Positions 7,345 to 35,327 of a DNA stretch of 39,409 bases are shown piece by piece. Below the pieces are notes generated by a model. It was not told the origin of the DNA. It saw nothing but the letters and a program-made list of their open reading frames with translations, and did no database searches. Each line of letters opens with the position of its first letter. Position 1 is the stretch's first letter. Source of the DNA: Candidatus Dependentiae bacterium. GTDB lineage: Bacteria > Babelota > Babeliae > Babelales > GCA-2401785. A program made the translations under genes and the position numbers. The DNA lies in assembly GCA_016871815.1 (NCBI GenBank), contig VHBT01000001.1, forward strand, positions 75,925-115,333, in the 5' to 3' direction.

Positions 7345-8213
7345 ACATTCACAAAAGTGCTATAATTGCCGCTCAAATAATCGGTGAAACATTACCAATC
7401 AGTAGCAGCACACACGTTTGGATCATAGACACTATCTTCAGGCAAGCAGTTCCCTGGACCGACAAAATTGGAACTGAAAGCGTAATGGACTTGCTTTTTT
7501 TCCCAACTCTGATGGTTCTTCTGCTCTTTTTTAGACATTCAATTGTGTTCAGATTTAAAATCCTGATGCGTTTTTTTAAACAAAAAGAATGCTCTGTGCA
7601 CTCTAAAAAATGGTTTTCTCTTCTTTTTAGAGTGTTCGCATTTGTTTTTTTTTCATTAGTGAGCTTTACTCTAACTTTTTTTTCTCTAAAAAAAATACTC
7701 TCCCTGAGTACTCTTTCGCACCCTACACTTGCTGCAATCGGATTGAGCTGTACTGCTCTTTTACAAATTAGTACTTATTTTATTAAAAAAAATGATGAAA
7801 AATTGTCATTTATACGAGCGATTGGAATAGGTTTTTTTCAGGGATTTGCAGCGATTCCAGGTATATCACGTCTAAGCGTTACACTGGTAAGCGCAAGATG
7901 GCTCTCTATTCCCACTCACCGAGCGTTTGAGTTTTCAACACTTCTTCAACTCGCTACTTTTTTAGGGAATCCATTAAAAAATCTCTGCGACAAAAAAATA
8001 CATTTCTTTAATCTCTACAAAGACCATATCGCCAAGCTAAGTTTTGAAGATTTTTTAATAATAACAATGTGCGCGTTTATTTCTTTTTATGGATTAAGGC
8101 TTTCATGGCACCTTAACGAAAATCGATCGCTCTGGAAAATAGCTCCCTACTTTACGATTCCCCTGACACTACTTTATCTAATACGCAACCAATCTTTTTT
8201 ATACTTTCCGTAA
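7341..8213 (+). CDS. uppP: Undecaprenyl-diphosphatase (UppP/BacA-like), diverged
   Basis: UppP dephosphorylates undecaprenyl diphosphate so the lipid carrier can be reused for peptidoglycan and polysaccharide export. The 290-residue membrane protein keeps both catalytic regions. The first is QIIGETLPISSSTH (12-25), matching the family's (E/Q)xxxE...PxSSxxH. The second is PGISRLSVTL, where the usual PGISRSGAT has lost the glycine. About seven to eight hydrophobic segments are visible. It is the last gene of the coupled operon, which fits a role in recycling the carrier for the glycan made by the two upstream enzymes. Its last 15 bases overlap the end of the convergent gene at 8199. Confidence 0.8.
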   Translation: MNIHKSAIIAAQIIGETLPISSSTHVWIIDTIFRQAVPWTDKIGTESVMDLLFFPTLMVLLLFFRHSIVFRFKILMRFFKQKECSVHSKKWFSLLFRVFAFVFFSLVSFTLTFFSLKKILSLSTLSHPTLAAIGLSCTALLQISTYFIKKNDEKLSFIRAIGIGFFQGFAAIPGISRLSVTLVSARWLSIPTHRAFEFSTLLQLATFLGNPLKNLCDKKIHFFNLYKDHIAKLSFEDFLIITMCAFISFYGLRLSWHLNENRSLWKIAPYFTIPLTLLYLIRNQSFLYFP

Positions 8214-8582: not shown

Positions 8583-9158
8583 CTAATTAATGGCCCTTAA
8601 ACCACAAACGATAACAATATCTATTTTCTCTGATAAAGAATCAAAATCCATTAATCGCCACTGAGATTGATGTTTACGTTTTTTTCTTATCACAATTGCT
8701 GCAGATTCTGAAGTTTGCTGGCTATTAGGTTGAACCAAAAGAGCTAATTCCTCTGATGAAGTTGGCTGCTCTGTAACAATCAATGCTGGAGGAACAACCG
8801 CACCAGGGCGAGGAACCTGAAAATAACCCTCAGCATTCATCATGGCAAGATGATATGCAGAAAGAGCTGGCACAACCGCAACAACTTCATTTGACTGATA
8901 TCGCTGCTCTCGAGAAATATCTCCCATGAAAAGAGTGTCTATCAACAAACACATATTTTGAGAGGGTATTGCGAAAATAGAAAAATTTTTACTTGGGATA
9001 TTTTTACAATAAGAACTAAATACCGATTGTAGCTCTTGATTACTTAAAGCAACTAAACAACGTTCTACAAAAGAATTTTCAACTACGACCCCATTAGCAG
9101 ACAAGGCAGAAAGACCCACAATAAAAAACAGGGTTGTTAAATAATTTTTGACCTTCAT
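8583..9158 (-). CDS. Exported protein of unknown function
   Basis: A 191-residue protein with a typical signal peptide (MKVKNYLTTLFFIVGLSALSANG). The mature part has three or four cysteines, a Pro/Val segment (VPRPGAVVPPALIV), a Ser/Glu/Gln-rich stretch and a basic RKKRKHQSQ motif. No family recognised. A GTG nine bases upstream (9167) is an alternative start; I prefer the ATG. Codons 3-10 are the 3' arm of a long inverted repeat whose other arm lies just after rplQ, so its translation may depend on RNA structure. It is first of a two-gene unit with the small exported protein downstream. Confidence 0.75.
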   Translation of the reverse strand: MKVKNYLTTLFFIVGLSALSANGVVVENSFVERCLVALSNQELQSVFSSYCKNIPSKNFSIFAIPSQNMCLLIDTLFMGDISREQRYQSNEVVAVVPALSAYHLAMMNAEGYFQVPRPGAVVPPALIVTEQPTSSEELALLVQPNSQQTSESAAIVIRKKRKHQSQWRLMDFDSLSEKIDIVIVCGLRAIN

Positions 9159-9257
9159 ATTTACCACAACTTTTATGATCCAAAATCATCACAAAAGAAA
9201 ATTACCAAGAGCGCAAAGCTATAGCAATATGATCAAAAAATTATCTAACAACCCTGT
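9128..9257. repeat. Long inverted repeat pairing the rplQ-downstream leader with codons 3-10 of the exported-protein gene
   Basis: The segment 9128-9151 (ACAGGGTTGTTA, then AATAATTTTTGA-like) reappears in inverted orientation at 9233-9257. There is one substitution, which becomes a G-U pair in the minus-strand RNA, and one extra base. In that RNA it forms a stem of about 24 bp. Its 81-base loop holds the ribosome binding site and the start codon at 9158, and its 3' arm is codons 3-10. The 5' arm begins 20 bases after the rplQ stop and includes part of a perfect TTGACA. It may be a regulatory hairpin, an RNase III site or the remnant of a mobile repeat; the sequence alone does not decide. Confidence 0.7.
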
Positions 9258-9276
9258 CAAGGAAAGTCAGAAAGAC

Positions 9277-9633
9277 CTACACCCACTCAATACGAGAAAT
9301 AGGAGCAGTGTCACTTGGGCGACGACCAAGATTATAAATTCTCAAATAACCACCTGGACGCTGTACATACTTAGGAGCAATTTCACGAATAAGCTTATAA
9401 ACAGCTTCTTTGTCGTAAGGCAATTCCTGAGAAATACGTCTGATCGTATTAAAATTATCACCAGCTCGCGCTAAGGTAACAATTTTTTCTACATAACTAC
9501 GCAAGACTTTTATGTGAGTTGTTGTCGATTGAATATGCCCATGAAGAATCAAGCTAATAGCCTGGTTTCTCAAAAGCGCCTTGCGGTGACCTTGTTTTAT
9601 ATTTAATTTTTTTCTATCACACTGATGCATCAT
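9277..9633 (-). CDS. rplQ: 50S ribosomal protein L17
   Basis: L17 binds 23S rRNA near the tunnel exit. The 118-residue product has the family N-terminus (RKKLNIKQGHRKALLRNQAISLILHG) and the closing GGYLRIYNLGRRPSDTAPISRIEWV. Its start overlaps the rpoA stop as ATGA, the conserved alpha-operon end. No terminator is visible after the stop, so the transcript may continue into the exported-protein genes. Confidence 0.97.
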   Translation of the reverse strand: MMHQCDRKKLNIKQGHRKALLRNQAISLILHGHIQSTTTHIKVLRSYVEKIVTLARAGDNFNTIRRISQELPYDKEAVYKLIREIAPKYVQRPGGYLRIYNLGRRPSDTAPISRIEWV

Positions 9634-29870: not shown

Positions 29871-29905
29871 AAAAAGAGGCCCATGTAAAACATGGGCCTC
29901 TTTTT
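29871..29905. terminator. Bidirectional rho-independent terminator between rseP and rplM
   Basis: A perfect 15-bp stem (29871-29885 with 29891-29905) with a five-base loop. It has A5 on the left and T6 on the right, so it can end transcripts from both rseP (plus) and rplM (minus). The GC-rich core is GAGGCCCATG. Confidence 0.92.
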
Positions 29906-35280: not shown

Positions 35281-35327
35281 AAAAATACAAAAGGGCGGGA
35301 GTCAGACTCCCGCCCTTTTGTATTTTT
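35281..35327. terminator. Bidirectional terminator with 22-bp perfect stem
   Basis: Positions 35281-35302 pair without mismatch with 35306-35327 around a three-base loop. The core GGGCGGGAGT is GC-rich and flanked by A5 on the left and T5 on the right, so it serves both the small exported-protein gene (plus) and the VOC-protein gene (minus). Confidence 0.93.

Follow-up and report, generated by a model that had tools for sequence, protein, structure and literature searches.

The long hairpin that joins the region behind rplQ to the first codons of the following gene in a Dependentiae genome is probably the transcription terminator of the rplQ operon, which also hides the start codon of that following gene in read-through RNA. 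The hairpin is genuine and does not owe its existence to chance, and the element as a whole has an ordinary main role (termination and insulation) in an unusual layout. It was found in a window of 39,409 nt (the whole stretch of DNA that was analysed) from a genome of 1.03 Mb in 52 contigs, 96% complete, the closest RpoA matches of which are TM6/Dependentiae genomes; the host is a parasitic Dependentiae (TM6) bacterium. As read from the translations, the end of the operon on the minus strand has the gene order S13-S11-S4-RpoA-L17, beyond which lie, on the same strand, two orphan ORFs with signal-peptide-like starts and then the convergent uppP/bacA (Table 1).

Structure of the hairpin and its gene context

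The outer stem is formed by gapless pairing over 22 bp (minus strand, 9257-9236 with 9149-9128) with one G-U pair at 9245/9140, and a one-base bulge at 9235 is followed by two further pairs which extend it to 24 bp, in line with a preliminary description of this DNA that had reported a stem of about 24 bp with one G-U pair and one bulge. The same description had placed the 5' arm shortly after rplQ and the 3' arm in codons 3-10 of the next gene, and both placements held; with the ATG at 9158 taken as codon 1, the 3' arm also includes one base, the first, of codon 11. Its assignment of the ribosome binding site and the start codon to the loop was not upheld: the AUG (9158-9156) pairs with 9231-9229 within an inner helix (9232-9217 with 9171-9155), the bases immediately before it are likewise paired, and no clear Shine-Dalgarno sequence was found at this start codon. 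The outer stem encloses 86 nt, filled by the inner helix, as against about 3-10 nt in the loops of classical intrinsic terminators. The base of the stem, ACAGGG/CCCTGT, is followed directly by TTTTTATT, which is T at seven of its eight positions, so that the G-C pairs and the T-tract of an intrinsic terminator are both present. The T-tract flanks the 3' arm on the minus strand only, and the 5' arm has no A-tract before it, which gives the element an orientation away from rplQ. The T-tract is weaker evidence for a terminator than it would otherwise be, because it also encodes Phe-Phe-Ile, a combination that is common in signal peptides.

Table 1. Features at the rplQ end of the ribosomal operon (window coordinates).
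Feature	Position	Strand	Remarks
rplQ (ribosomal protein L17)	9277..9633	-	Final gene of the ribosomal operon; stop ends at 9277; Pfam PF01196, E 2.5e-24
TTGACA, possible -35 element	9257..9262	-	Overlaps the 5' edge of the stem; word about 2.4-fold enriched upstream of genes in the genome
5' arm of outer stem, ACAGGGTTGTTAGATAATTTTT	9236..9257	-	Begins 19 nt past the rplQ stop
5' arm of inner helix	9217..9232	-	Four pairs G-U; inner duplex -17.9 kcal/mol
Small apical hairpin, TTTTGTGATGATTTTGGATCATAAAA	9172..9195	-	Immediately 5' of the start codon; fold prediction
3' arm of inner helix	9155..9171	-	Includes ATG 9158-9156 and the bases immediately upstream
3' arm of outer stem, AAAAATTATTTAACAACCCTGT	9128..9149	-	Covers codons 4-10 and reaches the first base of codon 11; the two extra pairs add codon 3
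U-tract, TTTTTATT	9120..9127	-	Directly 3' of the 3' arm; codons 11-13 (Phe-Phe-Ile); recovered as a terminator tail in the scan
Orphan gene, 191 aa	8583..9158	-	Coding score (codon usage) 0.125 in the frame of the gene and below zero in the other frames
Second orphan ORF, 123 aa	8199..8570	-	Signal-peptide-like start; coding score 0.082, other frames negative

The gene into which the 3' arm reaches encodes a 191-aa orphan protein with an N-terminus, MKVKNYLTTLFFIVGLSALSANG, that by eye resembles a signal peptide. Its coding score may be set against a median of 0.16 for genes of similar size, and no relatives were found in 49 genomes, in a scan of GTDB contigs, in Pfam or in NCBIfam. The second orphan ORF, for which Pfam and NCBIfam searches returned no significant relatives, begins 12 nt past the first and is probably co-transcribed with it; its 3' end overlaps that of the convergent uppP/bacA by 15 nt (8199-8213).

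Burial of the start codon was assessed by predicted accessibility, and the probability that it is unpaired is 0.01-0.11 in read-through RNA as against 0.24-0.88 when the RNA begins at 9230 or further downstream; for RNAs that begin inside the loop, folding is at chance level (z 0.03). The word TTGACA at the 5' edge of the stem was found 24 times upstream of genes in this genome where about ten were expected, and this enrichment was the only usable outcome of the promoter search; a two-box model trained without supervision moved towards A-rich words and was set aside. No good -10 element follows TTGACA at 9262-9257, the TANNNT preferred in this genome being absent at a spacing of 18, and scans of the loop for a consensus promoter did not rise above background.

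On the favoured reading, the inner and outer helices would zip up directly behind the U-tract (9127-9120) once RNA polymerase has copied the 3' arm, and the ribosomal transcript would be released inside codons 11-13 of the next gene. Transcripts that escape termination would keep the same fold, with the AUG of the secreted-protein gene buried, and the very strong ribosomal transcription would thereby be kept from spilling into that gene. The gene itself would depend on a promoter within the loop region of about 86 nt, which is to be assumed if its expression is to reach a useful level, and mRNA from such a promoter would lack the outer 5' arm, so that neither the terminator nor the start-codon clamp could form. 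Termination in vivo, the block of translation and the internal promoter are what we infer from the layout and the predicted folds.

Statistical strength and uniqueness

The preliminary description had considered pairing of this kind rare by chance, and the calculations agree: the fold of 9277-9100 reaches -56 kcal/mol (z -7.1), with none of 200 dinucleotide shuffles as good, and the inner pairing tested alone was equalled by one of 2000 shuffles and by none of 3000 random 24-mers from the window. An inverted-repeat scan that covered 966,916 bases (about 93% of the genome) returned 36 inverted repeats with arms of 16 nt or longer, in 33 of which the spacer is at most 15 nt, many of these being terminator-like with A/T-rich outer arms. 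The hairpin is the sole repeat in these 967 kb whose arms reach 20 nt (at 90% complementarity or more) and whose spacer exceeds 15 nt, and two first-order Markov genomes contained no repeat of this kind. It is also the only one among 203 tandem gene gaps (40-220 nt) to rank in the top four for both folding z and the number of leader-to-codon pairs. Other leader-to-codon hairpins of the genome (L093, L073, L052 and L079) proved on inspection to be weaker or based on A/T runs, and an ordinary terminator is already present upstream of two of them (L093 and L073).

The imperfect pairs of the main stem are five G-U (of 39 pairs) and no A-C in minus-strand RNA, a bias that would arise about once in 32 by chance and, as a small count, is supportive at most. 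The minus strand folds to -48.8 kcal/mol as compared to -34.2 kcal/mol for the plus strand. Both the bias and the better fold of the minus strand are what is expected of an RNA element that is read from the rplQ side.

Further repeats were recorded in the window and elsewhere in this genome. An inverted repeat at 2183-2249 of the window, TATGCTTAAGTAAAAC / GTTTTACTTAAGCATA (perfect over 16 nt and 90% over 21 nt; spacer of 25 nt), sits in the gap between the ORFs at 1138-2175 and 2262-2768; it is not a terminator, since it has no T-tract, and is possibly an operator. Two perfect hairpins with A/T-rich outer arms, at 35281-35327 (23 bp, 1-nt loop) and 29871-29905 (16 bp, 3-nt loop), are likely bidirectional terminators. 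The longest palindrome of the 967-kb scan that is not terminator-like is a 27-nt inverted repeat (26 matching, 4-nt loop, no T-tract), TATTTTGTACGATACCGGCTTCAATAA, at positions 4195-4252 of L089 (contig C19). In L070 (contig C7) an 18-bp terminator-type hairpin occurs twice in identical form (1555-1598 and 2870-2913), at a distance of 1.3 kb, which suggests a recent tandem duplication.

rplQ ends in related genomes

A terminator-type hairpin with a T-rich tail lies within about 120 nt of the rplQ stop in 33 of 60 distinct Dependentiae sequences, and at most of the rplQ ends that have none a NifU-like gene follows closely. The loops of these terminators are nearly always 3-9 nt long, the larger ones being 34 nt (L113) and 20 nt (L155). 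Seven relatives have the next gene beginning 12-37 nt behind the terminator, and in L113, the one with the 34-nt loop, a gene with a signal-peptide-like start follows 22 nt after the T-tract. The window hairpin lies 19 nt past rplQ, at the 3' end of the unit and in the right orientation, as the terminators of the relatives do, and, judged by these sequences, it would be the extreme of their series, in which the start of the next gene has come to lie inside the terminator. A pattern scan between rplQ and the convergent uppP listed no comparable terminator, the weak site at 8484-8466 being its only entry. As about half of the relatives have a terminator at the same place, the hairpin occupies the place of the operon terminator. 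The standard pattern scan itself misses the hairpin, and this, along with the enclosure of 86 nt, counts against reading it as a terminator.

No relative sharing the pair of rplQ and the orphan gene was found among the Dependentiae compared, and there is consequently no covariation support; the nearest relative found (L111, RpoA 75% identical) has its sequence end inside rplQ at a contig end. In L035, where a secreted gene also follows rplQ, no such fold was detected (z -0.6). In L047, from another Dependentiae family (genome G010), the leader pairs with signal-peptide codons within the first 180 nt after rplQ (z -3.0); its secreted-looking gene differs from that of the window, and no T-tract is present at the pairing. 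The NifU-like gene behind rplQ in many Dependentiae (L033, L036, L037, L042, L045, L128 and others) contains, in the codons around its G-A-C-x-G-C-P motif, a terminator-like hairpin with a T-rich tail, e.g. AGGGCGCTTG...CGGGTGCCCT TTTTCTTT. A broken second copy of rplQ was observed, in fragments, downstream of the intact gene in L043 (G003:C124:2354-2630).

Alternative readings and known systems

The preliminary description had offered three readings, namely a translation switch, a processing site at the end of the ribosomal transcript, and a mobile palindrome captured as a signal-peptide sequence. Of these, the reading that ties the element to the end of the ribosomal transcript has the best support, although the T-tract and the terminators of relatives speak for a terminator rather than for a processing site alone. 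A near-perfect duplex of 22-24 bp that closes a ribosomal operon could plausibly be cut by RNase III or a similar enzyme, which would split off the downstream mRNA and leave rplQ with a stable 3' end; such a processing site appears quite improbable, since cleavage would wreck the start of the secreted ORF, and the T-tract and the terminators of relatives are explained without it. The translation switch survives in a constitutive form, in which the start codon is predicted to be hidden in read-through RNA, while for switching as such no alternative structure, RNA family or covariation was found. We consider it unlikely that the element is a regulated attenuator, with the secreted genes transcribed together with the ribosomal operon and the terminator opened conditionally, e.g. 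by an early ribosome start at AUG 9158 as a translation-coupled switch. The start codon between the arms would make ribosome binding and hairpin formation mutually exclusive, and the scans did not reveal a convincing separate promoter, both of which would suit an attenuator; against this, the leader before the 3' arm has no strong antiterminator fold (z -1.3), Rfam gave no family match (one chance-level score, far below the gathering score), no leader peptide or ligand pocket was recognised, and typical attenuators open more easily than a stem of 40 bp would. That terminator and clamp in one are opened by early ribosome binding, such that this intracellular parasite couples ribosomal output to its secreted, possibly host-directed orphan proteins, is a speculative extension to which we give little credence.

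The inverted repeat might also have no function and merely be young, a template switch having copied the start of the gene in inverted form after rplQ. The homology of about 40 nt with small gaps, as in an inverted duplication, the uniqueness of the repeat in the genome and the want of covariation that would prove selection agree with such a quasi-palindrome, which we nevertheless regard as improbable given the five G-U to no A-C pairs in the sense RNA and a position and T-tract that match the terminator expected after rplQ. The arms and their spacing resemble small invertons, and a flipped 86-bp segment would, on reading the sequence, place a stop in the new reading frame, so that the arms could be recombination sites of a switch that toggles the secreted gene. 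This is very improbable: a recombinase survey of the genome gave no serine recombinase and just two tyrosine recombinases, both similar in size to XerC/XerD and located on other contigs, the spacer itself is internally symmetric, and a 22-bp arm with a one-sided T-tract fits a terminator better. As regards the captured mobile palindrome (REP- or MITE-like), little more than its palindromic form recommends it, and it is hardly credible, since a whole-genome DNA search showed it to be single-copy, the best other matches being of 14-22 nt, at chance level.

The closest precedent is found at sigG of B. subtilis, where a very large hairpin (20+ bp) has been proposed to keep RNA that reads in from the operon upstream from being translated; a promoter has been mapped between the arms of this hairpin, and sigG RNA made from it cannot adopt the structure (PMC5942855). 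The two cases are alike in the pairing of upstream-operon RNA over 20 bp or more with the start region of the next gene, which here involves 24 bp of outer stem and the inner helix. They differ in that no terminator role is claimed for sigG, while the 3' arm in the window runs into a U-tract within the coding region; furthermore, the promoter between the arms is mapped in sigG and inferred here (TTGACA at 9262-9257 without a good -10), and the counterpart of the translation block in the window is a predicted low accessibility of the start codon. In IS10 and IS200, structures that are unique to impinging transcripts stop expression through termination and/or hiding of the ribosome binding site. 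As is proposed for the window hairpin, the structure is present only in RNA that reads in from outside, but these are mobile elements, and here a single-copy chromosomal gene beside a ribosomal operon is concerned; the protection of the transposase genes of Tn10/IS10 and IS200 from outside promoters is cited in PMC2965389. Work on 5' terminators and attenuators (PMC2965389) and on E. coli 3' ends that fall within ORFs (PMC7815308) indicates that premature termination around gene starts is common and often regulatory, from which the window hairpin differs in that no signal-sensing element or alternative fold was detected by Rfam and the fold test. The rplQ terminators of other Dependentiae resemble it in place, orientation and the T-tract after the 3' arm, and differ in their loop (mostly 3-9 nt versus 86 nt) and in having the next gene behind rather than inside the terminator. 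On this comparison, what appears to set the window hairpin apart from sigG and the transposase genes is that a single stem, with a 3' arm and a U-tract that are coding, would serve as terminator and clamp at once.

The principle is therefore already known, and the unusual part is that the hairpin is built into the first codons of the gene itself. In this way, a compact genome could insulate a gene that directly follows the operon with its strongest transcription and spend no additional intergenic sequence on it, as the upstream terminator would borrow the first codons of the next gene. If confirmed, this would mean that searches for terminators and attenuators that consider only short loops and intergenic regions miss a class of elements.
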